Assembly (NCBI GenBank): GCA_001603805.1
Contig: LUZY01000002.1
Coordinates: forward strand, 186,001 to 250,000
Source of the DNA: Deferribacterales bacterium Deferri_01
GTDB lineage: Bacteria > Chrysiogenota > Deferribacteres > Deferribacterales > Geovibrionaceae
Reading direction: 5' to 3'
Length of the DNA: 64,000 nucleotides
Position numbers and translations under genes: made by a program. The notes under the pieces are model-generated. The model saw only the letters and a program-made list of their open reading frames with translations. It was not told where the DNA came from and searched no databases. Of this stretch, positions 25,029 to 42,922 are shown in pieces. Every line of letters begins with the position of its first letter. The stretch's first letter is position 1.

Positions 25029-26420
25029 CTATCCCTTGACTCTCTTGTTCATTGCCTGCCTTGATATTCCGAGAAGAGCGGCTGCTTTGCTCTGGTTTCC
25101 GCCGCTGATTTTCAGCGCCTCACTGATAAGAATATTCTCCATGTCTTTTAGAGAAGGGAACCTGCCGGAATAGGTAAACTGAGTCCCCGCAGGTACAGCG
25201 GAGCTTACAGCACCTCTGCTTCTGCCTGTGGATTCAAGATAAGCAATAACATCACCCGCTGTAAGCATGTTCGGGCTCCGTGCCGCAAGGTCATAGGCGA
25301 TAGCCCTTAATTCTCTGATGTTTCCGGGAAATGTGTATGAAGAGAGAATACCTGCTGCTGCTTTTTCAAAGTTTTTTTCAGGAGTGCCGAGTTCCACCCC
25401 CGCCATCTTATAAAAATGGGAAAAAAGCAGGGGAATATCTCCTTTTCTGTCCCGCAGAGGAGGAATACAGAGTTTATGTATTGCAATACGGTAATAAAGA
25501 TCCTTACGGAATCTCCCCTCTGTCACCTTTTTATCAAGATCTGCATTAGTCGCCAGAACTATGCGGACATCGGCTTTTTCTTCCGTGTCACTGCCCATTG
25601 CCCTGAAAGTGCCTTCCTGCAAAAAACGCAGAAGTTTAAGCTGAGAGTTTTCAGAGATATCTCCCACCTCATCCAGAAACAGAGTTCCGCCGGACGCTTC
25701 CAGAAGAAGACCCCGCCGGGCTTTGTCCGCTCCGGTGAAAGCGCCTTTTCTGTGACCAAAAAGGGTATCGGAAAAGACTGTATCATCCACATCCGCAACA
25801 TTCACAGGGACAAACGCCCCTTTCCGCCTGCTTGCCTTATGGACGGCTTCTGCCATAAGCTCCTTTCCTGTTCCTGTTTCCCCGCATATCAAAACGGGCT
25901 GCATTCCGCCGGCCACAGCCTCAATGTATTTAAATATTGCAAACATGGAGCTTTCTTTTGTGACAATAGAAGAAAAATCGGAGGAGCATTTTAGGTGCGA
26001 TGCCTCAGTTGCCTCGGTAAAGCTTTCCACCTGACGTTTAAGTTCTTCTTTTTCAAGGATATTTTTGATGGTAGTAATGAAACGGAGACTGTCCACAGGT
26101 TTGAGGATGTAGTCATCTGCGCCTTTTTTCAGGCAGTTTACAGCGGTCTGGGAATCATCCGCCGCCGTGATGATAATCACCGGAGTTTCAGGATACTTTG
26201 CCATTACGAAGTCGAGAATATCGTTTCCGTCAATCTCCGGCATATAAAGATCCAGAACAATAAGAGCAAACGCTCTATGCTCAAGTATATCAAGTGCTTT
26301 TTGCCCGCCGGACGCAGTGGTGATGTTTTTATAGCCTGCACTCTTCAGGGCAAAACTGTAGGAGAAAAGGATATCCTCCTCATCATCCACAAGAAGTATA
26401 GGAATATCGTATTTCAGCAT
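25029..26420 (-). CDS. NtrC-family sigma-54-dependent response regulator
   Basis: A 463-aa protein: REC (residues ~5-120; phosphoacceptor Asp in VLDLYMPEIDG), AAA+ (~150-380; GETGTGKE Walker A, GAFTGA sigma-54 loop intact, GGTLFLDEVG Walker B, FPGNIREL) and a Fis-type HTH (GNQSKAAALLGISRQAMNKR). It should activate sigma-54 promoters. Last gene of the long minus-strand chemosensory string, 14 bp after a sensor kinase that is its likely partner. The operon's own promoter is sigma-54 type, so autoregulation is a natural guess. Confidence 0.92.
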   Translation of the reverse strand: MLKYDIPILLVDDEEDILFSYSFALKSAGYKNITTASGGQKALDILEHRAFALIVLDLYMPEIDGNDILDFVMAKYPETPVIIITAADDSQTAVNCLKKGADDYILKPVDSLRFITTIKNILEKEELKRQVESFTEATEASHLKCSSDFSSIVTKESSMFAIFKYIEAVAGGMQPVLICGETGTGKELMAEAVHKASRRKGAFVPVNVADVDDTVFSDTLFGHRKGAFTGADKARRGLLLEASGGTLFLDEVGDISENSQLKLLRFLQEGTFRAMGSDTEEKADVRIVLATNADLDKKVTEGRFRKDLYYRIAIHKLCIPPLRDRKGDIPLLFSHFYKMAGVELGTPEKNFEKAAAGILSSYTFPGNIRELRAIAYDLAARSPNMLTAGDVIAYLESTGRSRGAVSSAVPAGTQFTYSGRFPSLKDMENILISEALKISGGNQSKAAALLGISRQAMNKRVKG

Positions 26421-26434
26421 AGTATTCCTTCTGA

Positions 26435-28324
26435 TTATCTCTGTGCGGGGAAAGTCACCGTAACGGTCGTACCCTTCTCCGGTTCGGAGGCAAAATCCAG
26501 CTCGCCCTTATGCTCTTTAACATAAGTATACACTATAGAAAGCCCCAGCCCGGTTCCTCCGTCCTTAAGCTTGGTGGTGAAAAAAGGTTCGGTTATTCTT
26601 CTTATTATATCACTAGGAATCCCGACTCCTGTGTCTGAAACGCAGATTTTCAGATTTCCGCTTTCATCCGAAGCGCAGAGAAGTCTGACAGAGCCGTTTT
26701 TATCAGGGAGAGCCTCAAGTGCATTAAGAATCAGATTGATGAGTACCTGCTCCATTTTCTGCCTGTTTCCTTTGACATTTGGAACAGGCTTTATGATGTC
26801 TGTGGAAAAATCAGAAGTATATTTCAGAATATGCTGATTAAGTATTTTCACAGCAGAGGTGACAACATCTTCAACATTAATTATGTCATCCATGTTTTCC
26901 GTGTCCCCTTTGGAAAAACTTTTAAGCTCATGGACAATTTTTTTAATCCTCTCCGAGCCTCCGGCTATTCCTTCCAGAAGCTTCGGAATATCCTCACGCA
27001 GAACAGAATAAGGGAGATTTTCCACCTCAAAATCACCTTCTGTTTCGTAAACTCTGTCAAGCACTTCGCTGAACCCTTTCCAGAGATCCAGCATCATTTT
27101 ACTGTTAAACATTATGAAATTGTTGGGGTTATTAATCTCATGGGCTATGCCTGACACCAGTGTGCCAAGCGCTGTCATTTTATTGGTCTGAATGAGCTTT
27201 TCCTGAAGCTGACGCTCTCTTTTCTCAAGCTTTTTAGCCTCTGTAATATCTTTGAAAGAAAGATAAAGATAATCGGTTCCGCCGATACTGAGCCGCTGGG
27301 AGTTGGCAAGAAAAGTGAAAGTCTCGCCTGTTAGGCGGGTCATGGTACATACAGCCTCGTCCTGACCGGAGTCACCGAGAATACAGCCGCTTACCGCCAG
27401 AACACGTATAAGCTCCGAGGGGACCTTACCGAGCATTTTATCTTTTCTGAACCCGAACATCTTTTCTGCAGCGGGGTTCAGGTCAGATACAGTATGTTCG
27501 GGCATTTTAAGCAGCACGAGAGCATCACGGTTCTTTTCAAAAATTTCGTCAAAATTTCTCGCTGTTGTATCCAGCTCATCCTTCATTCTTTCCAGTTCGC
27601 TCAGATCCGAAAAGATAAAAAGATATCTGGTCTGTTCGCCGCCCAGACTGAAAGTGGAAATATTCATAAGAACCGTTTTGCGTTTGTTCTCGGAAAGATT
27701 AAGATCAAGTCTTTTTGCTTTGCTTTCTCTGCCTTTAATAATTCCTTCGACAACACCTTCGAGTGAAGGCTGGAGAGAGGATATCACGTCCTCAACATTT
27801 TCACCGTAAATGTCGCCTCTTTCAATTCCGAATATTTCCATAAAAATATGGTTAAAATATTTTATCCTGAAAGATTCATCAGCAACCACTATCCCTTCTG
27901 CGGAGTTTTCCAGAACAGTTTCAAAAAGCCCGTTCTGCTCCACAAGGTTGCGCTCCACGGCGGCTCTTCTGATAGCCATTGACACAACAGAATAAAGGGA
28001 CTGGGTTTCAGCCGGTTTAACTATATATCCGTAGGGTGCGGCTTCACTTGCCCTGTCCATTGTGCTGATATCTGAATAGCTGGTGAGGAAAACTATGGGG
28101 ATGCGGTAAGCAGTGTTTATTATCCCCGCAAGGTCAATACCGTCCAGATCTGATTTGAGGTTTATGTCCATAAGAACAAGTACGGGAATTTCCTTTTCGA
28201 TCTCCTTCATCGCATCTTCAGGTCTGACAGCGTACACAACGTCAGAATAGCCGAAACTCAACAGTTTCGACCTTATATCCATAGCAATCAAGGCTTCATC
28301 TTCAACAATTAGTATTTTTCCCAT
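26435..28324 (-). CDS. cytosolic REC-PAS-PAS histidine kinase
   Basis: A 629-aa protein without TM helices: N-terminal REC (residues ~1-118; LVLMDINL, LTSYSD, YIVKPAE), two PAS domains (~130-245 and ~250-365), HisKA with SGIAHEINNPNNFIMFNS (His ~393) and HATPase with GTGLGLSIVY. AAGGA lies 7 nt before the ATG. The REC is at the N-terminus rather than the C-terminus, so the kinase may itself be gated by phosphorylation, for instance from CheA or the kinase encoded just upstream. Confidence 0.9.
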   Translation of the reverse strand: MGKILIVEDEALIAMDIRSKLLSFGYSDVVYAVRPEDAMKEIEKEIPVLVLMDINLKSDLDGIDLAGIINTAYRIPIVFLTSYSDISTMDRASEAAPYGYIVKPAETQSLYSVVSMAIRRAAVERNLVEQNGLFETVLENSAEGIVVADESFRIKYFNHIFMEIFGIERGDIYGENVEDVISSLQPSLEGVVEGIIKGRESKAKRLDLNLSENKRKTVLMNISTFSLGGEQTRYLFIFSDLSELERMKDELDTTARNFDEIFEKNRDALVLLKMPEHTVSDLNPAAEKMFGFRKDKMLGKVPSELIRVLAVSGCILGDSGQDEAVCTMTRLTGETFTFLANSQRLSIGGTDYLYLSFKDITEAKKLEKRERQLQEKLIQTNKMTALGTLVSGIAHEINNPNNFIMFNSKMMLDLWKGFSEVLDRVYETEGDFEVENLPYSVLREDIPKLLEGIAGGSERIKKIVHELKSFSKGDTENMDDIINVEDVVTSAVKILNQHILKYTSDFSTDIIKPVPNVKGNRQKMEQVLINLILNALEALPDKNGSVRLLCASDESGNLKICVSDTGVGIPSDIIRRITEPFFTTKLKDGGTGLGLSIVYTYVKEHKGELDFASEPEKGTTVTVTFPAQR

Positions 28325-28365: not shown

Positions 28366-30720
28366 TTAAAATTTCAAAACAAAAACAGTTCCGCTGTTAT
28401 TTTCAATACGCAAATCTCCCCCCAACTGGGAAGAAAGCGATGTAATTATCTGTGAACCGAGGGTATCGGAAGTTCTGAAACCTTCTGTGTCGGCTATTCC
28501 TGCTCCGTTATCTGCAATGCTTACCTCTTTTTTTCCATCATCCGTAAAACTTACGCAGATATTAATGCGTGCATCCACTGAATCTCTGTCGAAGGCATGC
28601 TTGTAGCAGTTTGTGATTATTTCCGTTATCAGCAGGCTTATGGCTATTGATTCGTCAAGATTAAGCCGCATCTCACAGCAGTTTACATCAACATAAACCG
28701 GACAGACAGAAGTGTACGTCATAGATATCTCACCCACAAGGCGTGTAAGATATGCCTTGAAGTCCAGCCCCTGCGCACTGTCGCCCCTGTAAAGCATTTC
28801 ATGGATTATCGCCATGGATTTAATCCGCTGTATGCTGTTTTTAAAGTAAGCAACTGCCTTTTCATCATTCAAATACTCACTCTGAATACTTAGAAGGCTG
28901 CTGACAATCTGAAGATTATTTTTTACTCTGTGGTGTATCTCTCTTATAAGAAAGTTTTTTTCCTCTATTCCGGCTATCAGTCCGTTTTTTATTCTCCTTT
29001 CTTCTGTTATATCTCTGAAAACCAGAACACCACCGCTCTCATAGGAGTCGTATTCGAGTTTGTTTATACTGTATGCGACAGGGATAACATCTCCGCTGCT
29101 GTTTCTGAAAAACACCTCGCCTTTGTGTATGCCTCTGTTTTTATTCACCGCTTCAAGGATCGGAGATTCCGGGCTTCCGTCTTCTGTACAGAGAATACTG
29201 TCAATATTTTCAGGCTGAGACAAAGGACTGTACTTCAGGATGCGGGCAGCGGAATTGTTCATGAATTTAATATTCATAACTCCGTCAAATACGATTACTC
29301 CTTCATCCATTGCGTTCAGAAGTGCCTTGTGTATATTCTCAAGGCTGAAAAGCCTGTTTGTAAGGTACTTTTCATTACTTTTATCAACAACTATTGCATA
29401 GATATATTCCTTGTTCCTGAAACGCACCTTAGCACAAAGCAGAAGAAAATCCTTAACAGTGTCCTTCTCATTTTTAAGACTGCACTGCATTTTACCCTGT
29501 CCTTCTGTTTCAATCTTCCTGAGAAAATCCGCAGAAAAAGGGTTTTCCCTGAAAATAGAATCGGAAAGGGCACGGTTTTTCATCTTTTCTACACCTGTGC
29601 CGAAGAAAATCTCTGCGGCACGGTTGGCATCCTCTATCATGAGAGTGTTGATATTAATAAACAGCATGGGAACGCCGGAAAGGCGGAACATTCCCTCATA
29701 CCATTCCATCCTGTTCAGGCTCTCTCTGAATTTCATATATTTATCTGAAGCATCGAATACAAAACCGGTCAGCGAGGATAAATCACCATCGGACGAATAC
29801 TCCGCCATGCTGTAAAACTCAAGCCATCTGAGCCTGCCTTCGGAATCAGTGAAAGGAAGAGATTCCATCTCTTCTGAGTTCTCTGTTCCCTTCCGGTTTT
29901 TCTCATAGTCTGCGATGCGGTATATTATTTCAGCGTTTTTTTCTTCATCTCCGGTAAAACCAAGAAGGCTTGAGGCACTCCGGCTAAGTACTTCAACAGA
30001 CGGTTCGGGACGAAAGCTGAAACTATAATATGCCGAACTGCCCGTACTGCTCATTTTATCCAGAATAATAGAAAGATGCCTCTCCAGTTTTTTCATTTTT
30101 TCAAAATGCATTATTATTATTCCGGCAGACACGGTGAAGGTTAAAAAAACTGCAAGCTGAAAACCCGCTGAAAAATACTGGATATTAACTGCACCTTCTC
30201 TTGTGCCTTCAATTAATACGGGATAGTTCATTTTATGAATTCCCCAGAGGATAAGTGACACGCCTGTCACCTTCTTTCCAAAGCCGTAAAATGATTTTGA
30301 AACAAGAATAATAAAGCCTGTATAGATAAATGCTGCAGCAGAGAAAACAAAGACTACTGCATCTATTACAAAATACCCGGCTCCGTAAAAAACAGCCGCA
30401 GCAAGCAGGATTTCAGCCGTAAGAGCCCCCTGAAGGACAAAGCGGGGCTTCTTTTTATCAATAAGCATATGAGCGCCCATGACAAGCAGCACAGCCCCCA
30501 TCAGTACAAAGCTGAGTTTCAGAAAAAACAGGAAATCGTTTTCCCCGTTTCTGAAAATAATCATCTCAACAGAGTACCTTATTATGTTGAAAAGCCAGCT
30601 GTATCCCCATATTTTGAGATAATCGTTCCTTTCATTTATGTATAAATACATAAACATAAACATAACCGCCATGGAGGCGGTCAGTATGCCGATTATTTCA
30701 TTAAGAAAATCTGCCTGCAT
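28366..30720 (-). CDS. membrane sensor kinase with multi-TM N-terminus, PAS and HisKA_2
   Basis: A 784-aa protein. About seven TM helices fill residues ~5-220, like 7TM sensor modules. A PAS-like region (~235-345), further PAS domains (~345-465 and ~465-585), then HisKA_2 (FLIREIHHRVKNNLQIVSSL) and HATPase follow. I start at the ATG at 30720, after the cheB stop, with AGGAG ~11 nt upstream; a start 15 codons earlier would overlap cheB. It follows cheB by 19 bp, which ties it to the chemosensory genes. Confidence 0.82.
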   Translation of the reverse strand: MQADFLNEIIGILTASMAVMFMFMYLYINERNDYLKIWGYSWLFNIIRYSVEMIIFRNGENDFLFFLKLSFVLMGAVLLVMGAHMLIDKKKPRFVLQGALTAEILLAAAVFYGAGYFVIDAVVFVFSAAAFIYTGFIILVSKSFYGFGKKVTGVSLILWGIHKMNYPVLIEGTREGAVNIQYFSAGFQLAVFLTFTVSAGIIIMHFEKMKKLERHLSIILDKMSSTGSSAYYSFSFRPEPSVEVLSRSASSLLGFTGDEEKNAEIIYRIADYEKNRKGTENSEEMESLPFTDSEGRLRWLEFYSMAEYSSDGDLSSLTGFVFDASDKYMKFRESLNRMEWYEGMFRLSGVPMLFININTLMIEDANRAAEIFFGTGVEKMKNRALSDSIFRENPFSADFLRKIETEGQGKMQCSLKNEKDTVKDFLLLCAKVRFRNKEYIYAIVVDKSNEKYLTNRLFSLENIHKALLNAMDEGVIVFDGVMNIKFMNNSAARILKYSPLSQPENIDSILCTEDGSPESPILEAVNKNRGIHKGEVFFRNSSGDVIPVAYSINKLEYDSYESGGVLVFRDITEERRIKNGLIAGIEEKNFLIREIHHRVKNNLQIVSSLLSIQSEYLNDEKAVAYFKNSIQRIKSMAIIHEMLYRGDSAQGLDFKAYLTRLVGEISMTYTSVCPVYVDVNCCEMRLNLDESIAISLLITEIITNCYKHAFDRDSVDARINICVSFTDDGKKEVSIADNGAGIADTEGFRTSDTLGSQIITSLSSQLGGDLRIENNSGTVFVLKF

Positions 30721-30739
30721 TTTAAAATCAGCTCCTGCA

Positions 30740-31804
30740 TCAGTTCCTGCAATACGCCACAACAAACTGAGATATATTTCCCAACGGAAGAATTTTTTGC
30801 GCTGCGCCGAGTTCTATTGCCACCTTCGGCATACCGAAAACCACGCTTGTGGACTCATCCTGTGCTATGGTGTACGCACCGGCTTCTTTAAGCTCCAGAA
30901 GACCTTTTGCTCCGTCATCGCCCATACCTGTCATTATTACCGCAACTGCGTTGGAACCCACATATCTGGCTCCTGAGCGGAAAAGGACATCAACCGACGG
31001 TCTGTGCCTGCTGACTAAAGGACCTTCCTTTATTTCAGTGTAGTATCTGGCACCGCTTCGTTTGATCAGAGTATGTTTATTTCCCGGTGCTATCAATGCT
31101 CTGCCGGGAAGCACGGTATCACCGTTTTCCGCCTCTTTGACACTTATTTTAGACAGTGAATCCAGCCTTTGGGCGAACGAGGCTGTAAAGTTCTCCGGCA
31201 TGTGCTGAACTATAACTATTCCAGGCGAATCCGGCGGCATGGCAGTCAGAAACACTGTAAGCGCTTCTGTTCCCCCTGTGGATGCCCCAACAAGGATAAC
31301 CTTTTCAGTTGTTTCCATCATCGCTTTGCTGGTACTTTTCGGTATAATAACATCCGCAGTCAGTTTTGGCTGAATAGTGCGGGAAACGGCGGATATCTTC
31401 TTGACAGAAGCCTTTGCAGCCGCCTTTACGGCATCACAGATAAGGATTTTGGACTCCTCAAGGAATGCCTTTGTTCCCGATCTGGGTTTTTGTATAACAT
31501 CCACAGCACCGTATTCGATGGCTTTCATAAGTGTCTGTGAGTTGTCGACAGTAAGGCTCGAACACATCACCACAGGGATAGGGTGCTGAGACATAAGCTT
31601 TTTAAGAAATGTGATGCCGTCCATTCGTGGCATTTCAACATCCAGAGTGATAACATCCGGAATAAAATGCTTCATTCTCTCCGCTGCATAAAAAGGATCC
31701 TGGCAGGAAGCCACTTCGCTTATTTCCGGATCAGAAGAAAGAATTTCGGTAAGAGTTTGCCTAACCACTGCGGAATCATCTACAACAAGAACTTTCAGAC
31801 CCAT
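30740..31804 (-). CDS. cheB: chemotaxis protein-glutamate methylesterase CheB
   Basis: A 354-aa protein: REC (residues ~1-120; Asp in [20 protein letters not shown]) and the methylesterase domain (~160-345) with the catalytic Ser in GASTGGT, His in [11 protein letters not shown] and Asp in MTGMGDDGA. It removes receptor methyl groups and deamidates Gln. It follows cheD by 4 bp. Confidence 0.96.
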
Positions 31805-31808
31805 AACA

Positions 31809-32303
31809 TCAACCTGCGTCCATAGTATTTCTTAAGCTTTTCATAAAGACACGTCCTTCAGAGGAGTAAAAATACAGTTTTCTTCCTGAATCTCCACCCA
31901 CATCCTGAGCAGTAATTTTATAGCCCAAGGCCGACAAAGCGGCAAAAGCCGCCTGTATATTTTTTGCGCCTATAGTTTCTCTTTTGATTTTACCGGATTC
32001 AGTGCGGAACATGTCCGCCCCGCCGAAGACTTTTACTTCGATTTCTGAAGGTACAGCCCCCCAAACGCTAAAGCGGCTGTGCATATATGTTATTGAGCTG
32101 TCAACGAATTTATTAACATGAGAAGGGTTGTTTCCTACCACTGAAAAATTGGCGAGCGGGAGCATGGCGTGGCACATCCCGCCGATTTTAGCAGCTGACC
32201 AGAACATTATCACTGAAACGCACGATCCCAGAACCGTACTAACCACAGCAGGTTCTTTTTCAAGATACATTTCACATGGTTTCAAATAAATGCTTTTGAT
32301 CAA
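31809..32303 (-). CDS. cheD: chemoreceptor glutamine deamidase CheD
   Basis: A 164-aa CheD with the catalytic Cys in [10 protein letters not shown] and His in [10 protein letters not shown] place the start at TTG 32303, where AGGA lies 8 nt upstream and the LKP..MYLEKEP opening fits the family; the longer frame would overlap cheR by 56 bp without a site. It deamidates receptor Gln residues. The cheR-cheD-cheB order matches F7-type chemosensory clusters. Confidence 0.93.
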
Positions 32304-32319
32304 CTGCCTTATTCCTGAA

Positions 32320-33168
32320 TCATACTTTTCTGTAAACTGTCGGTGCGACTGTCTCCACATCAAGGTCCATCCCATGTATGGTTTCCGAATGTCCTAAAAA
32401 AAGAAACCTACCCCGTTTAAGATGGCTCACAAGCCTTTTCAGAATCCTCTCCTGCGTGTCTCTGTCAAAGTATATTATAACATTACGGCAGAATATTATG
32501 TCATAATCCTTATCATGAGAAAACTTTTCATCCATAAGATTAAGGCGGGAGAACCTGACTGACTTTCTTATAAACGGCTTCAGACGCACCTTGCAGTCAT
32601 TTTTATCTTTTGATCTTAAAAAGAATTTTTTTTTCAGTTCAAAGGGAAGCTGGGCTATTTTTTCTTCATTATAAATAGCTGTGCATGCTTTTTGCAGCAC
32701 ATCGGTGGATATATCCGTGGCAAGAATTTCATAATTCCAGCCTCGTATATTTTCAAAAAAACCGTGAAGCTCCATTGCAAGAGTATACGGTTCCTCACCG
32801 CTAGAGCAGCCTGCGCTCCAGACTTTGACCTTGGCATTGTCATTATCTTTCAGAAGATAAGGCAGAACTCTGTCCCTCATATATTCAAAGTGACCGGGCT
32901 CACGGTAGAAATCGGTTTTGTTTGTTGTTATAACATCTATGAGACTGACTATTTCCTCCTCACCCTCACCTGAGTTAAACACAAAATCCAGATATTCCTC
33001 ATAGGTGGTAAAGCCGTGTTTCCTCAGCCTCTTTCTTAATCTTCCCTCTACCATCTGTTTCTTTGTCGGGGGGAGCTTGATTCCGCAGTGATTTTCTATG
33101 AATGATTTAATGCGCTCAAACTCCATGGATGAAAGATTCTGACGAAAAACATCAAAATTAGAAGACAT
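32320..33168 (-). CDS. cheR: chemotaxis methyltransferase CheR
   Basis: A 282-aa SAM-dependent receptor methyltransferase: N-terminal helical domain (residues ~5-75), then the catalytic domain with VWSAGCSSGEEPYTLAM, ATDIS and FCRNVIIYFD. AAAGGTGG stands before the ATG at 33168; a TTG five codons upstream is less likely. It likely docks on the shared C-terminal EEF tail of the two adjacent MCPs (inference). Confidence 0.95.
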   Translation of the reverse strand: MSSNFDVFRQNLSSMEFERIKSFIENHCGIKLPPTKKQMVEGRLRKRLRKHGFTTYEEYLDFVFNSGEGEEEIVSLIDVITTNKTDFYREPGHFEYMRDRVLPYLLKDNDNAKVKVWSAGCSSGEEPYTLAMELHGFFENIRGWNYEILATDISTDVLQKACTAIYNEEKIAQLPFELKKKFFLRSKDKNDCKVRLKPFIRKSVRFSRLNLMDEKFSHDKDYDIIFCRNVIIYFDRDTQERILKRLVSHLKRGRFLFLGHSETIHGMDLDVETVAPTVYRKV

Positions 33169-33185
33169 ACACCACCTTTCCAACC

Positions 33186-33216
33186 CCCGTCCTGCGGTGT
33201 AACTCCGCAGAACGGG
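33186..33216. promoter_or_regulatory. intercistronic hairpin between MCP and cheR
   Basis: CCCGTCCTGCGG and CCGCAGAACGGG pair over 12 positions (one G-T pair) around a 7-nt loop. No U-run follows on the transcribed minus strand; ATATTTTATTTT follows on the plus strand. Confidence 0.6.
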
Positions 33217-33227
33217 ATATTTTATTT

Positions 33228-35276
33228 TCAGTAACTTACAAACTCTTCATCCAGCTTGTCATTGTCATCGTGCATATTAAGACTTATGCCCTTTGAAGAG
33301 TCTGTCTTCTTTGTTGTTTTAGCAGAAAGTGCAGGTGTTTTAGCAGGTTTGAAGCCTCCGCCTGTATTACTGCGGGTTCTGACAACAGCTGAGGAACTGC
33401 CGCTCATTCTGAAAAATGCCACTGCATGCTGAAGCGACTCTGCCTGACTTGCAAGTTCTTCTGCTGTAGATGCCATTTCCTCGGATGCTCCGGCGTTTCT
33501 CTGTATAACCTGATCAAGCTGCTGAATAGCACTGTTGATCTGTTCTGCTCCGGTTCTCTGCTCTGTGCTGGATGCGGTTATCTCCTGCACAAGCTCCGCT
33601 GTTTTTTGTATATCAGGCAATATCTGCTCAAGAAGTGATCCTGCACGTTCTGCAACTTCCACGCTGCTTATGGAAAGTGTGCTGATCTCGCCTGCGGCTT
33701 CCTGTGAACGTTCGGCAAGCTTGCGAACTTCACTTGCCACAACAGCAAAACCCTTTCCGTGTTCTCCAGCCCTTGCTGCTTCTATTGCTGCATTGAGAGC
33801 AAGAAGATTGGTCTGGCGAGCTATCTCTTCAATTATAGAGATCTTACCTGCTATATCCTTCATAGCTTTTACAGTCTGCTCAACAGCCGAACCGCCTTCC
33901 TTAGCGTCATCAGCCGCTTTTCTGGCTATCTTCTCAGTCTGAAGAGCATTGTCTGCATTCTGATTTATGTTAGAGGTCATCTCTTCCATCGAGCTTGATG
34001 CCTCTTCTGCCGCCGCCGCCTGCTCAGTTGCACCCTGTGACATTTCCTGCGCAGCGCTGCTAAGCTGTTCACTTCCGGCTGAAACATTCTCCGATGAGCT
34101 TTTCACATCAGATACAATGTCTCTCAGCTTTGTTATCATATCTCTCAAAGCAGAAGCGAGTTCGCCTATTTCATCTCTGCTGTTAAGATCTATATGAGCA
34201 TCCAGATTACCGTCTGCGACCTGTTTTGCAAACTCAACCCCCTGAAACAAAGGCTTTGTTATCATCTTTGTCATAACAACCGCAAGAATTACTCCTATTA
34301 TAATTGCTATGATTATTCCCGTAACCATTGCAACAGATGAGGCATTCAACACTGATATAGCCTGCTGTGCTATTTCAGTGGTCTGCGTCATCCCCGCTAC
34401 AGCTATGCCTTCGGCTTTTGACAAGAGAATACCTGCCGTTACACTTCTCTGATCACCAATCTTGTCAGAATCAGCCCATGTCAGGGCGAGTGTTTCCATG
34501 GAGCGCTTATACCCGTCCAGAGCAATCTTTATATTCGAAAGCTGATTAAGGTTAACCTGCCTCCGAGTTACCGATTCTATCTCATTGAGAGTTGTCTCCA
34601 TACTTTTAAATTTCGGAAAGACATCAGTAAGCTCCGTAAGATTCCTTGTTGCCTGAGCTTTCCAAGCTTCTATTCGAACATGGTTGCCTTCTATGATTAT
34701 GTTATTCATGGAAGTAATCTTCTGGCTACGTTCGGCAAGCTTTTCAGCTCCGGTACCACTGCGTATTTCAACAAGCAGGGCTTCTTCCTGACTGTGAAGA
34801 TAATCTTCGGCATTCTTCATGAATGACGCCGCATAGCTGTTCATATTATTTTTTGCTTCATCAAGTTTTTTGTTGTTATCAGCAGTCTGTTTTGCCAACC
34901 CCTCATACTCATTTGCAGCCGCAAGCACGTCTCCTGCTGATGCGTTAAGTGCTTTAAGATTTTGAGATTTTTCTCCCAAAGCCTGAATATCGGCTATATA
35001 CTTTTTCAGGTTTTCAAAGCTTTTCAAAGCCTTGTTATAGTCTTCCAGACTTCCTGTGTACTGAAAGGTACGCATGCTGAGCATGATTGAGGAGTTCGTT
35101 CTTTCGATTTCACCGGCGAGTTTGACTTCCGGAACGTACTCTTCCGAGAGTTTAAGTGACTCCGTTTTGACCCTTGACATGTTCAGCATAGCAACAGCGC
35201 CAAGTACTGCTATAATGAGGATTAGCAGTCCGAACGCCATGCCGAGTTTTGTTCCAAGTTTCATATTTTTAAGCAT
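33228..35276 (-). CDS. methyl-accepting chemotaxis protein with helical periplasmic domain
   Basis: A 682-aa receptor: TM1 (~8-28), a long helical periplasmic region (~30-300, 4HB/HBM-like), TM2 (~308-333), HAMP (~335-390) and a signalling domain with [20 protein letters not shown] at the tip. The last residues, [10 protein letters not shown], are nearly the same as in the other MCP of this operon and look like a CheR/CheB tether. GAGGG lies before the ATG at 35276. The signalling half is almost identical at DNA level to that of the MCP at 35960. Confidence 0.94.
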
Positions 35277-35346
35277 TTTAATCCCTCGCTCTGTAATAGC
35301 CATAAATTAAGCTGCTCACACGCAGAGATCAGATGTAACGGTCTGC

Positions 35347-35371
35347 GGGGAGGGAGGCATGCTCCCTCCCC
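35347..35371. promoter_or_regulatory. intercistronic hairpin between cheW and MCP
   Basis: GGGGAGGGAG and CTCCCTCCCC are perfect 10-bp arms with a 5-nt loop. CTTTT follows on the plus strand only. As in the two other intercistronic hairpins, the U-run faces the antisense direction. Confidence 0.6.
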
Positions 35372-35445
35372 TTTTACCGCTCACAACGGCGTCAGATATA
35401 AATGACGGCTCATCCGTCGTCAGAAAAATACGGAAAAATTCCGGT

Positions 35446-35943
35446 TTATGAAGCGTTCTCCTGAAAGCCGGAGTACATACTCAGCTCATCAGCAGAAAAA
35501 ACTTTATTAATATTAAGAATGATTACGAACCCCTCGCCTTTTTTTGCCATCCCCTGAATAAATTCAGTGTTAAGCTGTGTGCCTATTCTTGGTGCAGGTT
35601 CGATGAACTCTTTTTCAAAATCCACCACCTCCTGCACAGAATCTGCCAATGCACCGAGTATTGCGCTTTCGCCGTCAAGAGATACTTCAACTATGATTAT
35701 GCAGGTGTTCACCGTACGCTCAGTTGCGGACATTCCGAACTTGAGCTTAAGGTCAATCACGGGGACAACATTTCCCCGCAGGTTTATTACACCTCTCATA
35801 AAATCAGGCGTCTGCGGCACTTTGGTCACATTGGTGTAGTCAAGCACTTCCCGGACAGACATGATGTTCACCCCGAACACCTCTTCACCCATCTTAAAGG
35901 TCAGTACCTGGCAGCTCCCGGTGTCGTTTATGTTTTCCGACAT
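35446..35943 (-). CDS. cheW: chemotaxis coupling protein CheW
   Basis: A 165-aa CheW: VLTFKMGEEVFGVNIMSVREVL, MRGVINLRGNVVPVIDL and an SH3-like double-barrel pattern. It couples receptors to CheA. It lies between the two MCP genes, 17 bp after the first (35960). Confidence 0.96.
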   Translation of the reverse strand: MSENINDTGSCQVLTFKMGEEVFGVNIMSVREVLDYTNVTKVPQTPDFMRGVINLRGNVVPVIDLKLKFGMSATERTVNTCIIIVEVSLDGESAILGALADSVQEVVDFEKEFIEPAPRIGTQLNTEFIQGMAKKGEGFVIILNINKVFSADELSMYSGFQENAS

Positions 35944-35959
35944 AACTACCTCCGATTTG

Positions 35960-37957
35960 TCAGTAACTTATAAATTCTTCGTCCAATTTGTCGTGGTCAC
36001 TCCCTGAAAGGTTCAGTTCCACTCCTTCTTTCTGCTGTTTAGACTTAGCCGGTTTAAGAGCCGGTGTTGTTTTTGAGTTTATGTGTGCGGTCTTTATAGT
36101 TTTTTTGTTCTTAGCTGACGAAATGCCGGAATTGTCCTTCATCTTGAAAAACTGCATTGTCTGCTCAAGTGAATCCGCCTGTCCTGCAAGCTCTTCCGCA
36201 GTGGAAGCCATTTCCTCGGATGCTCCGGCATTCTGCTGAATAACCTGATCAAGCTGCTGTATTGCGCTGTTGATCTGCTCCGCTCCGGTTCTCTGTTCAC
36301 TGCTTGAGGCGGTTATCTCCTGCACAAGTTCTGCTGTTTTCTGTATATCCGGCAAAATCTGCTGAAGCAGGCTGCCCGCTTTTTCTGCAATTTCAACACT
36401 TGTGGTGGAGAGGTCGCTTATCTCCTTAGCAGCTTCCTGAGAGCGTTCAGCAAGCTTGCGAACCTCGCTTGCAACAACTGCAAAGCCTTTTCCGTGTTCT
36501 CCTGCTCTTGCTGCCTCTATCGCAGCATTCAGTGCAAGGAGGTTTGTCTGGCGTGCTATCTCTTCTATTATTGAGATTTTGCCGGCTATATCTTTCATAG
36601 CCTTAACTGTCTGATCCACTGCGTGTCCGCCTTCTTTGGCATCGTCGGCCGCTTTTCTGGCAATCTTCTCCGTCTGGAGGGCGTTATCTGCATTCTGATT
36701 TATGTTAGAGGTCATCTCTTCCATTGAGCTTGATGCCTCCTCTGCCGCCGCTGCCTGTTCTGTGGCACCCTGCGACATTTCCTGAGCGGCGCTGCTTAAC
36801 TGACCGCTGCCGGATGAAACATTAAGAGAAGCCGCCTTGACCTCAAGCACTATGATGCGGAGCTTATTGATCATATCCTTCATAGCTGCAGCCAGCATAC
36901 CGACCTCATCTTTCTGTTCGAGGTCCATATCGGCGTCCAGATTACCGTTTGCCACTTCACGGGCAAAAGCTACTCCCATGTTTATGGGAACTGTTATTCC
37001 CCTTGCTATCACTACACCTGCTGCTATGCCGAAAATGAGTGCAGCAGCGGACATAACAAGTATCATCACAAGTGCGCTTCTGAAATCCGCAAGCATCATA
37101 TTGCTGCTTTCAGCGTTAGCGCTGTTAGTAAACTCCTGAGTTTCTCTGGCGTTTGTTACCAGTTCCTGCTCAAGTCTCACCTGCTCTGCAGTGCGTTCTA
37201 TGTAAAGAGAAATATTGTCATCATAATTATTGATAGCCTCTATGAGAGACTGTGCGCTGTCTATGTTTACCTTGTTAACAAAACTTGCCTTGAGAACTTC
37301 TGCGGTTTCTCTGGCACTTCTCACTAACTGTCTCAGTTCTTCGGTGTATTTCTGATCTCCGCTGCTCTTAAACTGCCAAACCATTGTTCTTGCTTTTGCG
37401 AGGTTCAGCATAATATTATAAGAACGTGCGATCTTAGTTACTTTATCCTCAAGGGCGTGTGCATCCTTTGTTGATGATGCCACAAGGGTCTGAAACTGTT
37501 CCAGCTGCTCTTTCACAGTATTTTCAGCTTCTTTGAAAACATGTGTTACGGCAACGCCCATTCTGTTTTCATCTTCGGTTTTTTCATTTTCGACCAGTAC
37601 ATACTTATCGAAAATTGCACCGTATTCCCCTGCATTGTCGACAATACTGTTAATTGCTTCCGTGATCTTCGGATCATTCATCCTTTTGGATGATTCTTCT
37701 GCGCGGGTTTTTAATCCCTGAATCGCATTACTCATTTCGTCTATAGATGCCTGATCCTTTCTGAGCATGTAGTTTTTTTCCTGCTGGCGTGCATTAAGCA
37801 TAAACTCGCCCACAGTCCACATATCTTCGGAATACTCAACGCTTCCGAGAACTTTGTTCATTCCGGTGTACCCCGCAAGCCCCACCATAAGGGTAAGCAG
37901 AAGGACAATACCGAAGCCTATCAGCAGCTTCATGCCGATCTTCAGATTCTTCAACAT
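35960..37957 (-). CDS. methyl-accepting chemotaxis protein, HBM-like sensor
   Basis: A 665-aa receptor: TM1 (~8-28), periplasmic helical domain (~30-285) with HBM-like [22 protein letters not shown]2 (~288-312), HAMP and signalling domain with the standard tip. It ends in [15 protein letters not shown] lies 5 nt before the ATG at 37957. Its cytoplasmic half is a near copy of that in the other MCP; the sensors differ, so two stimuli may feed one array. Confidence 0.94.
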
Positions 37958-38004
37958 ATCAACCTCCAAGGTTTTCAGATAAAAAAAAATTAAAAAAAAT
38001 ATAT

Positions 38005-40089
38005 TTACTCTATGCCGTGATATATCTTCACAGCGTCTATGATCAGTGCAACTGAACCATCGCCGAGTATCGTTGCTCCGGATACTCCGTGAACCTCCTT
38101 AAATATTTTGCCCAGTGACTTTATAACTGTTTGATGATCACCGATTACTGCGTCTGTAACGAAGCCGACTCTCCTTCCGTCTATTTCGGTAACAACTATC
38201 TGCTGAATTTCAGGCACATTGCCTTTGATGCCGAAAAGCTCACGAAGCTTGATGTAAGGCACAATATCGCCCCTGACCTGAATGATGCTGCGCCCGTGGG
38301 AATTTGCCACATCCTTCGGCGTGAGTTCAATACACTCCTCCACCACTGCAAGGGGTATAATGAAAAACTGGTCCGCAACCCTGATGAGGAGCCCGTCTAT
38401 GATTGCCAGAGTGAGTGGAAGTTTCAGGCTTATCACTGTTCCTTTGCCTTTTTCGGAGGATATATCCAGCGTGCCTTTGAGAGATTCAATATTCTTTTTG
38501 ACCACATCCATACCCACGCCTCGCCCGGATATGTTTGAAACGGCTTCGGCAGTGGAAAAGCCCGGAGCAAGAATCAGGTCACACGCCTCTTTTGCGGTGA
38601 GTTCTACACCTTCTGCTATCAAACCTTTTTCAATGGCTTTTTTACGAACCTTTTCGGGGTCTATACCTCTTCCATTGTCGGTTATCTGTATGAGAACGCT
38701 GTCGCCCGAATGTCTGGCGCTGAGTGTGATTGTTCCTGTTTCTTTTTTGCCCGATGCTTTTCTCTCTTCAGGCATTTCAAGACCGTGGTCAATACTGTTT
38801 CTTATGAGATGTACAAGGGGATCATTAAGCTTTTCGATAACGGTTTTATCCAGCTCTGTTTCAGCTCCTTCGGTGACAAGCTCTATCTTTTTGCCCAGAG
38901 AATGGGAGAGATCACGCACCAGCCTGTTGAACTTGCTGAATGTCGAACCTATGGGGAGCATTCTTATGCTCATGGTATTGTCCCGAAGGTCCCACACGAG
39001 CCTTTCAACATCCTCGGCTATCTTAAGAAGTTCCGGCTCATTTTTCCGTGCCGCAGTCTGACTCAAGCGTGCCTGAACAGTAACGAGTTCGCCTACAAGA
39101 TCCACGAGAAAATCCAGCTTATCAGACTGAACCCTAATGGATGTCATGCTTTCTGCTTCAGCCTTTTTCGCTTTGGTCTCTTTCATATTTTTTATATGAA
39201 GCTGCTCTTCAAGCGCCGCTGCAACTGCAGAAGAAGGCACAACGCCCTTTTCCACAAGAAACTCACCTAAACGTTTCTTTTCTGACAGAATATTTTCAAG
39301 CTCAGCCCTTGAGATATCACCTTTTTCAACCAGAATATCACCGATTCTCTCATGGTTTTCCACTTCTGAACCGTCATAAAAAGCAACGGGAGTGATTGTA
39401 ATATCGCAATCGTCTTCAACAAAAATGAAGACATCTCTTATGGCGTTTTCACCTTTATCCGTGGAGAGAATGATATCCCAATTTACATAACATTTCTCAC
39501 TTTCAAGCTCTTCAAGATAGGGAATTCGTTCAGGATGTGCCACAATTCTGCATTCTCCCAGCTCCATGAGTTCATTTAAAAGAAGTTGGACATTAACTCC
39601 CCTTGAAAAAATATCTTCGTACGGCTTGAACTGTATCCGGTATGTTGTAAGCGTTTTCCCGGCGGAGGTCTTTTCAGTGTCAACGGAAACGGATGCAGGA
39701 GCATCCTGCGGGGTTCCTCCGTGAAGTGAAGCAAAAAAACTTTTAAGCTCCAATGGTTCACCACATGAAGAATCAAGACTTTCGTCCGCAACCATTTCCT
39801 TTATAACATCACAGGACTTCAGAGAGTTTTCTATCATCTCCTGTGTTACGGCAAGCTTGCCTTCACGCACAAGATCATAAGCGGTCTCGATTCCGTGAAC
39901 AAAAGCAGCAAGGTTGTCAAAACCGAACATTGAGCCCGAACCCTTGATAGTATGCATAGCCCTGAAAACTTTTGCCACCAGATCAGAATCATCCGGTGTG
40001 TTTTCAAGCTCCATAAGAGACTGCTCAAGGTCTTCAAGCAGTTCTCCTGCCTCGGTCACAAATGCCTGTTTATGAATATCTGCGGACAT
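38005..40089 (-). CDS. cheA: chemotaxis kinase CheA with MshEN-like tandem motifs
   Basis: A 694-aa CheA: P1 HPt (residues ~1-105; phospho-His 46 in [15 protein letters not shown]), an adaptor-like region (~145-240), then two tandem motifs [12 protein letters not shown].. (248-271) and [12 protein letters not shown].. (273-296), P3 dimerisation (~315-375), P4 ATPase ([30 protein letters not shown]) and P5 CheW-like (~555-690). The tandem motifs resemble MshEN c-di-GMP-binding motifs; a classic P2 is not obvious. Followed by the MCP gene, preceded 4 bp away by cheY. Confidence 0.95.
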
Positions 40090-40093
40090 AACC

Positions 40094-40459
40094 CTATCCT
40101 AAAACTTTTTTTACTACTCCCAGAAGCTGTTCGGGTTTGAAAGGTTTGACAATCCAACCCGTAGCGCCTGCTGATTTACCTTCCTGTTTTTTAGAATCCT
40201 GAGACTCGGTAGTGAGCATGATTATCGGAATAAACTTAAAAGCTGCCTGCTTTCTAAGTTCTTTTATCAGGGTGATGCCGTCCATATTGGGCATGTTAAG
40301 GTCTGTCACCACCATATCAATTTTTTTACCGGATATTTTAGAGAGGGCGTCTGCTCCGTCAGAGGCTTCAATCACCTCATAGCCCTCTTTTGTGAGTGTA
40401 AATTTTACCATCTGCCTTATGCTGGCGGAATCGTCCACACTAAGAATAACCTTTCCCAT
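40094..40459 (-). CDS. cheY: CheY-type response regulator
   Basis: A 121-aa single REC domain: SVDDSASIRQMV, phosphoacceptor Asp in MVVTDLNMPNMDG, Thr in MLTTESQ and Lys in WIVKPF. It starts at the ATG at 40459, overlapping the STAS gene stop by 1 bp (TAATG). It is next to cheA and is the likely main phosphoacceptor. Confidence 0.94.
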   Translation of the reverse strand: MGKVILSVDDSASIRQMVKFTLTKEGYEVIEASDGADALSKISGKKIDMVVTDLNMPNMDGITLIKELRKQAAFKFIPIIMLTTESQDSKKQEGKSAGATGWIVKPFKPEQLLGVVKKVLG

Positions 40460-40809
40460 TAAACACTCTCCTTTGCTGCCCAAAGGCAGTTTCCGCATTT
40501 ATCCTGACTGCACCCTGTGCGCCTTGAAAACCCCAGGCTGTATTTCTTGAGTTCAAGGGGGCACCCTTCTTTCTTGTCAAAGGAAATATTCTTTCCCACA
40601 GAAGAAAAAGTGCGGTGCGCAGAACACATAAGCTGAAAAAAAGTGAAATCTATACTGGATTCACCTGAAATATTAACCTTCACTCTGTCCTCTGTGGAAT
40701 AGAGTTCCATAAGCTTTTCACGCACCTGACCAATATTGCAAACTGTAAGGTCGCCGGATAAGGAAAGGATGCAGTCCGAACCGTTCTTTTCCTCTTTGAT
40801 GTCTAACAT
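40459..40809 (-). CDS. STAS domain protein of the chemosensory cluster
   Basis: A 116-aa STAS protein (LSLSGDLTVCNIGQVREKL, VKVNISGESSIDFTFFQLM) with a Ser-Ser-x-Asp at the usual phosphoserine spot, and a C-terminal Cys-rich tail (CSQDKCGNC) not typical of the family. STAS genes occur beside cheY/cheA in some F7-like systems. I prefer the ATG at 40809, 7 nt after AGGAG, over one two codons upstream. Confidence 0.82.
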   Translation of the reverse strand: MLDIKEEKNGSDCILSLSGDLTVCNIGQVREKLMELYSTEDRVKVNISGESSIDFTFFQLMCSAHRTFSSVGKNISFDKKEGCPLELKKYSLGFSRRTGCSQDKCGNCLWAAKESV

Positions 40810-40819
40810 GTTCATACTC

Positions 40820-42058
40820 CTAAAATAACTCTACATTGTCCGGTTCTGCCGCCGGCTTCTTTTGTTTACCGGTGCTGCTTTTGCCTACGCTTCCGCCGAA
40901 CCCCTTGATGTGTTTTTCAAATATCTCTCTTTCGCTTTCCATTGTGTACATGGTTTTAAGATGTGAACTGAGATCGCTCAGGCGGAGTGTGCAGAGATTT
41001 ACACCCACATCATTCATTGCAGCGGAAAGACCAATAAGATCTTTTCCGACTATATCAAGCGGTTCGATCACATGCTCTATCCTTTGCCTGTTTATATCCT
41101 GATACTGAAGCGATATCACAATCCCTCTTATTCGTTCTGCGGTTTTCGCTGTTTCTTCCTGAAGGCGTTTTATAGTTTCTTTTGCTGAATTTATGCCGCC
41201 GTCAAGGAGACCCAGCGCTTCATTCACATCCTGCTCTGAAGACACGGCAAGCTCGTTCATTTTCTCCGCATTCTCAGAGGATTCATGATAAATATCTTCT
41301 ATATCGTTTGTTATAGTCTTAACAGAGTTTCTGATATCCATAGCAAAACGGTTTGACTGCTCGGAAAGCTTTCTTATTTCATCAGCCACCACTGCAAAAC
41401 CCCTGCCGTGTTCCCCTGCTCTCGCCGCCTCGATGGCTGCGTTCAGCGCCAGAAGATTTGTCTGATCTGCAATATATTCCACCTGAGAGACAGTGGAGTT
41501 AACCTTTTCGGCCCCTTCCATAATCATATTAAGACGAGAACTGACCAAATCAGAAAAGGCTCCTGTTTCCTTAAGAGTTTTAATAACTTCAAGCAAAACC
41601 GTTCTGTTCTTTTCCATCATCGAGTTTCCGCTTTTGTCATTATCCATAAGGTTTGATATTGCAGAGCCCGCAAGATCACCCTGCGCCTCTACCTGCTCCA
41701 CTATGCTCATAAAGTTGCCGCTAATCTCATTAGCTGATTCTTCAGAATCCCTGATCACATTTTGAAGCTGTCCTGAGAACATCGGCATTAGATCTGCCCT
41801 GTCATCCAGAAGTTTTTTTGTGCATGTAATAAACTCGTGCAGCTTGTTCATTTCCGCCTGTTTTTCTTCCTCTGCCCGTGTGCTGCATTTTTCAGCAGTT
41901 CTGACAGCAGAGATGTAGGCGGCTAAAACAGCCGCCGCACTTAAAACAATAGTCACGGCAAATGCAGTTAAGCCGCCGGTGAAATACACTGCAACAGATG
42001 CAGCCGCACCTGCACAAAGCGCTATATAGATGCCTGTTTTGTCACTCAGTTCCCGCAT
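40820..42058 (-). CDS. membrane MCP-like protein without periplasmic domain
   Basis: A 412-aa protein with two adjacent TM helices (~9-28, ~32-52) and almost no periplasmic loop. The rest is an MCP-type signalling coiled coil with [22 protein letters not shown] and [11 protein letters not shown]. It ends in [13 protein letters not shown], not the EEF tail of the other two receptors. It may sense membrane or cytoplasmic state or act as an array scaffold (inference). It overlaps the preceding gene by 17 bp. Confidence 0.88.
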
Positions 42059-42233
42059 AATATTTCCTTTTTGCTTTTATTGATGCGGCTGCCATCCCTG
42101 TAAATGACAAGAACAGAAAAACCATCATCTGTGCCGCTGATAAAACGCTTATGTTGAAATACTCAAACAAAGCCATAAAAATCCCTGAAATAGCTATCAT
42201 CGTAATGCCTGTTCTGAAAATCATTGAATTCAT
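42042..42233 (-). CDS. small two-TM membrane protein
   Basis: A 63-aa protein with two hydrophobic helices (residues ~8-24 and ~31-52) and a basic tail (KAKRKYYAG). GGAG lies ~9 nt before its ATG, and it overlaps the REC gene by 4 bp and the MCP-like gene by 17 bp, so it is translationally coupled and real. I do not recognise the family. A partner of the adjacent membrane MCP-like protein is possible. Confidence 0.65.
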
Positions 42234-42631
42234 GTTTTTTTGCTCCTCTGCAAAATTGTGTGTGTACTCTCAATGAGTTCAGATGGACTGAATGGTTTAT
42301 GAAGAAGCCCTACGACCATTTCCTTAACGTATGAATCCTCCGGTTTTACATCCAGATAGCCGGTTATAAGCAACACAGGGATTTTAAGCCCGTTTCTGTG
42401 AAGAAAATCAAGAACCTCAAGTCCTGTCATTTCCGGCATCATCACATCAAGAAGAATAAGGTCAAAGCTTTTTCCAGTCATTTCTTTGTTTCTAATTTTC
42501 TCTATACACGACAAGCCGTTAACGGCTTCAGTAACCTTGTATCCGAATTTTCTGAAGTAAAGGCACACGCCCCTTCTTAGTTCTTCTTCGTCTTCAGCAA
42601 AAAGTATTTCAAGCTGTGTAGTGTTATCCAT
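42230..42631 (-). CDS. single-domain response regulator (REC), first gene of the chemosensory string
   Basis: A 133-aa REC domain: FAEDEEELRRGV, phosphoacceptor Asp in LILLDVMMPEMTG, LLITGYLD and LLHKPFSPSE. No output domain. Its ATG is only ~13 nt from the -12 box of the sigma-54 promoter, so the mRNA would have almost no leader and no Shine-Dalgarno. No other in-frame start fits the REC fold. Confidence 0.9.
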   Translation of the reverse strand: MDNTTQLEILFAEDEEELRRGVCLYFRKFGYKVTEAVNGLSCIEKIRNKEMTGKSFDLILLDVMMPEMTGLEVLDFLHRNGLKIPVLLITGYLDVKPEDSYVKEMVVGLLHKPFSPSELIESTHTILQRSKKT

Positions 42632-42643
42632 GTATGTTTATAA

Positions 42644-42659
42644 AGCAACACCTGTGCCA
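42644..42659 (-). promoter_or_regulatory. sigma-54 promoter of the chemosensory operon
   Basis: On the minus strand TGGCACAGGTGTTGCT gives TGGCAC, 5 bp, TTGCT, matching the -24/-12 consensus with no mismatch. The predicted start of transcription is 2-3 nt before the REC gene ATG. Confidence 0.85.
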
Positions 42660-42713: not shown

Positions 42714-42729
42714 GTCAACATTGGTTGAC
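42714..42729. promoter_or_regulatory. palindromic site 1 (GTCAACATTGGTTGAC)
   Basis: A perfect 6-bp-arm palindrome centred ~88 bp upstream of the sigma-54 start. It is the best of three evenly spaced sites and suits an enhancer for a sigma-54 activator. Confidence 0.7.
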
Positions 42730-42780
42730 ACAATTTGCAAAGGAAGCCAAAAAGCCTTATTTCCAAGCAGTTACAAAGAT

Positions 42781-42796
42781 GTCAACTTTTACTGAC
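42781..42796. promoter_or_regulatory. palindromic site 2 (GTCAACTTTTACTGAC)
   Basis: A 16-bp site with GTCA/TGAC arms, starting exactly 67 bp after site 1. Confidence 0.6.
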
Positions 42797-42847
42797 AAAA
42801 CAACACGATCCGGTGAATTCCCCTCTGAATGAGGGTATGCAACGAGT

Positions 42848-42863
42848 GTCAACCCTTATTGAC
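42848..42863. promoter_or_regulatory. palindromic site 3 (GTCAACCCTTATTGAC)
   Basis: A 16-bp site with GTCAA/TTGAC arms, exactly 67 bp after site 2 and 32 bp before the -35 box of the ribB promoter, so it could also affect ribB. Direct repeats GTTACA (42686, 42696, 42770) lie among these sites. Confidence 0.65.
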
Positions 42864-42894: not shown

Positions 42895-42922
42895 TTGACA
42901 CCCGCCGATAAAAGATTATAAT
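42895..42922 (+). promoter_or_regulatory. consensus sigma-70 promoter of the FMN riboswitch-ribB unit
   Basis: TTGACA and TATAAT, both perfect, with a 16-bp spacer. The predicted start is at ~42929, just before the riboswitch. Confidence 0.85.

Follow-up and report, generated by a model that had tools for sequence, protein, structure and literature searches.

In the window, that is, the whole stretch of 64,000 nucleotides analysed here, a long chemosensory operon is read on the minus strand, opening with a single-domain response regulator and closing with the gene of an NtrC-family activator (Table 1). An array of three palindromes stands upstream of this operon, between its sigma-54 promoter and the divergent ribB gene, identified by PF00926. 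Sites, promoters and gene order are read directly from the sequence. The end of the response regulator gene that opens the operon is overlapped by a short frame resembling a membrane protein (42061-42233, minus strand), which lies ahead of the first chemoreceptor gene (MCP); a similar frame is present in the two other genomes of the genus, G001 and G002, and was not seen in other genera.

Table 1. Features of the chemosensory operon, the palindrome array and the divergent ribB side, in window coordinates
Feature	Position	Strand	Sequence	Remarks
NtrC-family activator, candidate binder of the palindromes	25029..26420	-		Last gene of the operon
Receiver-PAS-histidine kinase	26435..28324	-		Adjoins the activator gene
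MCP, STAS_2, CheY, CheA, MCP, CheW, MCP, CheR, CheD, CheB, HisKA_2 kinase	28366..42058	-
Single-domain response regulator	42230..42631	-		First gene; PF00072, 2e-20; ATG at predicted +3
Sigma-54 promoter, -24/-12	42644..42659	-	TGGCACAGGTGTTGCT	0 mismatches; predicted +1 at 42633
Palindrome 1 (promoter-proximal)	42714..42729		GTCAACATTGGTTGAC	12/12; centre at -88.5 from predicted sigma-54 +1
Palindrome 2	42781..42796		GTCAACTTTTACTGAC	10/12; centre at -155.5 from predicted sigma-54 +1
Palindrome 3 (distal)	42848..42863		GTCAACCCTTATTGAC	11/12; centre at -222.5 from predicted sigma-54 +1
Sigma-70 promoter of divergent ribB	42895..42922	+	TTGACA-N16-TATAAT	Perfect match, read from sequence
FMN riboswitch, RF00050	42927-43074	+		116.7 bits; between ribB promoter and ribB

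The palindrome array and its rarity

An earlier note on this DNA had placed the three palindromes at 42714, 42781 and 42848, two successive steps of 67 bp, and had given their distances from a sigma-54 promoter downstream on the minus strand. On rechecking, coordinates and spacings proved exact, and the centres fall at the distances proposed when counted from the predicted start. The promoter itself matches the -24/-12 consensus with no mismatch, is canonical in its conserved GG and GC, and is kept in relatives; the genome encodes one RpoN. Site 1 alone is a perfect dyad, sites 2 and 3 being imperfect.

Searched for with at least 10 of 12 matching positions, GTCAAC-N4-GTTGAC occurs five times in the 64-kb window, three of these within the array, and when the 295-bp region was shuffled 5000 times with its dinucleotides preserved, no shuffle contained even two sites (mean 0.019). 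No enrichment of the motif was found across the 2.85-Mb genome, where 16 matches with at most one mismatch compare with 20 for the reversed control, so that its significance comes from the cluster. A regulon extending beyond the chemosensory operon, drawn from these genome-wide matches, was dropped for the same reason. FNR/CRP-type boxes, which read TTGA..TCAA, were also set aside, the order of their arms being opposite to that of the palindromes.

Geometry of the array in related genomes

Following the check that the earlier note had proposed, relatives were searched for the putative enhancer sites upstream of the homologous operon, and across the family loci the sites are kept: dyad-symmetric, within the expected range of about 80-200 bp upstream, in orthologous promoters. 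Within the genus, the three sites of G001 and G002 are again spaced 67/67, and the sequence between the sites has no indel. Across these two genomes and that of the window (G000), identity is 67-100% in the half-sites, against 33-43% in the flanks and the sequence between sites. The third site, known only from this genus, is represented in both by weaker copies at the same position. The string TTGAC-N54-TGGCA-N6-TTGC has exactly one match in each of the three genomes and none for the control. Matches to the shorter TTGAC-N54-TGGCA in G004, G006, G010 and G011 are a single shared conserved sequence, judged to be unrelated; at the one locus read, in G004, it adjoins a P-II-like gene.

The same sigma-54 promoter, preceded by two palindromes, stands before a cassette of response regulator, MCP, STAS and CheY genes in sister genera (g3, g4); in genera other than that of the window the kinase and activator genes are read away from this cassette, the palindromes lying in between. 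In 9 of the 11 family loci the proximal palindrome begins exactly 70 bp before the TGG of the -24 box, the other two loci having 72 and 67 bp, and a second palindrome follows 64-71 bp from the first in all 11. The inter-site spacing of 67 bp belongs to this genus; in other genera it ranges over those 64-71 bp, with a rotational phase of 34-274 degrees. As judged from these alignments, the distance from first site to promoter is tightly constrained and that between sites is not, which speaks against phase-locked wrapping of the DNA as the general arrangement. This separation of what is conserved from what is not (inter-site spacing and phase) bears on how such activators assemble.

The regular spacing had been taken to suggest DNA wrapping or cooperative binding, and this part of the proposal is not supported: the regularity is a trait of the genus, and cooperative wrapping appears unsupported beyond it. 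The corresponding model, a special and compatible version of the reading favoured below, would have three activator dimers, one per box at the 67-bp spacing, closed into a phase-locked ring as proposed for NorR of Escherichia coli, where three enhancer sites before the sigma-54 promoter of norVW are thought to scaffold the hexamer, all three being required and the ring forming on a 266-bp fragment (PMC2941729). Three enhancer sites with a sigma-54 promoter are indeed common to both arrays, and the 67/67 spacing is unchanged in three species. NorR, however, is a GAF-type sensor of NO, and here two sites, loosely spaced and sharing no phase, suffice in other genera; moreover, 67 bp amount to 6.4 helical turns, which puts neighbouring boxes on different faces of the helix. 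A phase-locked wrapped complex may exist in this genus, but we hold it to be rather unlikely.

The candidate activator and the control of the operon

The protein encoded at 25029-26420 combines a receiver (PF00072), an AAA+ domain (PF00158) with the GAFTGA signature as KGAFTGAD, and a Fis-type helix-turn-helix (PF02954). It does not reach the equivalog level of NtrC proper (335.1 bits with NCBIfam TIGR01818, for a cut-off of 558.6), and with the TyrR model it scores 197.9 bits where 576 are required. The earlier note had pointed to it as the protein to assay on the palindromes, and it emerges as the best candidate binder, both by its linkage to the operon and by covariation of its recognition helix with the DNA across relatives. 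Activators with these palindromes in their promoters have the recognition helix RQA[LM][NH]KR, or KQALNQK/KQALSQK in two genomes of family f10, whereas RQTLH[RK]L paralogues face GTAAAT..TTTAC palindromes instead. On the activator tree the motif label is clustered and not monophyletic, which makes the pairing of activator and palindrome likely rather than proven. Full palindromes are absent from two paralogue groups with a similar recognition helix; no palindrome array accompanies a Nitrospirae cassette whose activator has a helix of the same type.

Three paralogous cassettes (L092, L098 and L099, in G006:C10, G010:C12 and G011:C10) join the helix RQTLH[RK]L to palindromes of the TGTAAAT..TTTTTACA type before a sigma-54 promoter, and read at the level of sequence they are a natural specificity switch. 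The two f10 genomes, G048 and G049 (L103, L105), are of this phylum too; the activator there, whose helix is related, lies beside a sigma-54 promoter and the same palindromes as in the window, with downstream genes other than this cassette. The boxes of the window also recur before a second cassette of G009, at C5 796500-803500 (L101); no kinase/activator pair was seen within the 7 kb examined there, and control would presumably be exerted in trans, through the activator at G009:C2.

We may thus understand the palindromes as upstream activating sites of the operon's own NtrC-family activator, driving the chemosensory operon via sigma-54, a reading to which we assign a probability of roughly three in four. 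Dimers of the activator would bind the palindromes, the likeliest phosphate donor to its receiver being the adjacent kinase (26435-28324), possibly with CheA in addition. The phosphorylated protein would then assemble into an AAA+ ring, presumably a hexamer, and remodel the RNA polymerase-sigma-54 complex at 42659-42644. The whole operon would be switched on, the activator gene included, creating a positive feedback loop in this genus; the loop would be genus-specific because the kinase/activator pair changed position within the operon. The geometry would be set by the first site, and further sites would raise local occupancy rather than build a phase-locked wrapped complex. In a phylum where little is known of regulation, this links a DNA motif to a regulator and to an entire chemosensory operon, in a testable wiring diagram with self-activation.

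The boxes have known counterparts. GcsR of Pseudomonas aeruginosa, a TyrR-like sigma-54 activator, uses three 18-bp boxes, TGTAACG-N4-CGTTCCG, before one sigma-54 operon, and the TyrR box is quoted as TGTAAA-N6-TTTACA (PMC4894688). The consensus of 22 sites from the family loci, TGTCAAC-N5-TTKACA, resembles the GcsR plan, also by three palindromic boxes before a sigma-54 operon; the differences are an NtrC-type protein with a receiver, a chemosensory operon as target and boxes some 67 bp apart. Written as TGTCAA-N6-TTKACA, it shares with the TyrR box the 18-bp plan, length and ends, and differs at the fourth base. TyrR works mainly on sigma-70 promoters. The logic of the pathway is similar to that of CrdS-CrdA with Che3 in Myxococcus xanthus, where a chemosensory system, a histidine kinase and an NtrC-family activator control expression (PMC3510030); the output there is developmental genes, whereas here no target was found other than the chemosensory operon. 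In kind the sites are nothing unusual, being putative sigma-54 enhancers with TyrR/GcsR-like boxes; as a case they are new.

Another enhancer-binding protein, for example one like the flagellar FleQ or FlrC, might bind the palindromes and place the operon under the motility hierarchy, there being 18 full-length activators in the genome, 17 besides the operon's own, and the FleQ box, GTCAAT-N2-ATTGAC (PMC10723142), having a similar half-site. This 14-bp box, however, keeps its half-sites 2 bp apart, against 4 bp in the window, so that the palindromes are no FleQ boxes; their motif is limited to this operon instead of being scattered over many promoters, and it is linked to, and covaries with, the activator encoded by the cassette. 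We consider such a binder improbable. It is most improbable that the palindromes serve ribB, as operators for a repressor or activator of that gene, with the sigma-54 promoter incidental, even if the half-site TTGACA is a -35 box and the centre of site 3 lies about 74 bp upstream of the ribB transcription start, for in other genera, where the kinase gene stands opposite the array in place of ribB, the sites hold their distance to the sigma-54 promoter, and ribB is already under the FMN riboswitch.

Sigma-54 promoters abutting start codons

Returning to the operon's own activator and its putative sites, the array can be considered a solid new case of a sigma-54 enhancer, and the unusual feature of the locus is, on the predicted start, a sigma-54 promoter that abuts an ATG. 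The first gene has no Shine-Dalgarno sequence and no alternative in-frame start within its first 14 codons. Counted from the predicted start, the ATG is at +2 or +3 in all 14 cassettes whose first gene encodes a response regulator, again with no Shine-Dalgarno sequence; other in-frame starts are either missing or GTG/TTG, at codon 5 or 8, whose use would truncate the first strand of the receiver. The three paralogous cassettes in G006:C10, G010:C12 and G011:C10 were left out of this count and rejected as leaderless, as their ATG near +3 opens no response-regulator frame. A start codon within about 2 nt of the predicted +1, no Shine-Dalgarno sequence and conservation of both predict leaderless messengers, and suggest that the cassettes have conserved leaderless sigma-54 mRNAs; at the operon the mRNA would begin no more than about 2 nt from the first ATG, and would probably be translated as leaderless.

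A scan for TGGCAY-N5-TTGC-N(1-30)-ATG over 12 genomes of the family gives a wider view, counts referring to the matches listed. The ATG peaks at exactly +2, with 31 of the 175 matches listed against a uniform expectation of 5.8 (nominal P of about 4e-14, overstated since orthologues are not independent). Among those same matches, a second group of distances, from +12 onward, carries Shine-Dalgarno motifs. Neither the 66 matches listed from other families in the order nor the 70 from other families and phyla show the +2 peak. Some +2 ATGs outside the cassette (L159, L161) were rejected, a start preceded by a Shine-Dalgarno sequence following them. The +2/+3 group also holds genes that resemble nifA (this genus and G004-G008) and lpxC (G004, G006 and G008), names that come from recognition of the sequence with no domain search. 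We find it somewhat more probable than not that the family systematically abuts sigma-54 promoters and start codons in several genes under activator control, namely in the cassette, in nifA and, for one genus, in lpxC, yielding leaderless mRNAs.

Promoters that abut a start codon, with no ribosome-binding site, are known in other settings: in Campylobacter jejuni they are sigma-70 promoters (PMC3847290), and in Deinococcus-Thermus the study concerns the -10 region of promoters adjoining the ATG (PMC12340547), whereas the promoter here is of the -24/-12 type. No leaderless mRNA tied to sigma-54 was found in the part of the literature covered, where sigma-70-linked ones were (PMC3847290), which is weak evidence of novelty. 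If the leaderless reading is true, sigma-54 promoters are added to those known to lie directly against start codons, and an all-or-none sigma-54 switch would be coupled to translation independent of Shine-Dalgarno sequences.

The nifA-like gene of the window's genome (G000:C3:150340-150370; L153 441-471) has a sigma-54 promoter with its ATG at +2/+3 and no Shine-Dalgarno sequence, an arrangement kept in G001, G002, G004, G005, G006, G007 and G008. Sigma-54 control of lpxC would be unusual. In one genus the ATG of the lpxC-like gene lies at +2 of such a promoter (L155 in G008, L156 in G004, L160 in G006), and in the genome of the window (L163) the lpxC-like gene has a sigma-54 promoter followed by a 22-nt leader with a Shine-Dalgarno sequence.
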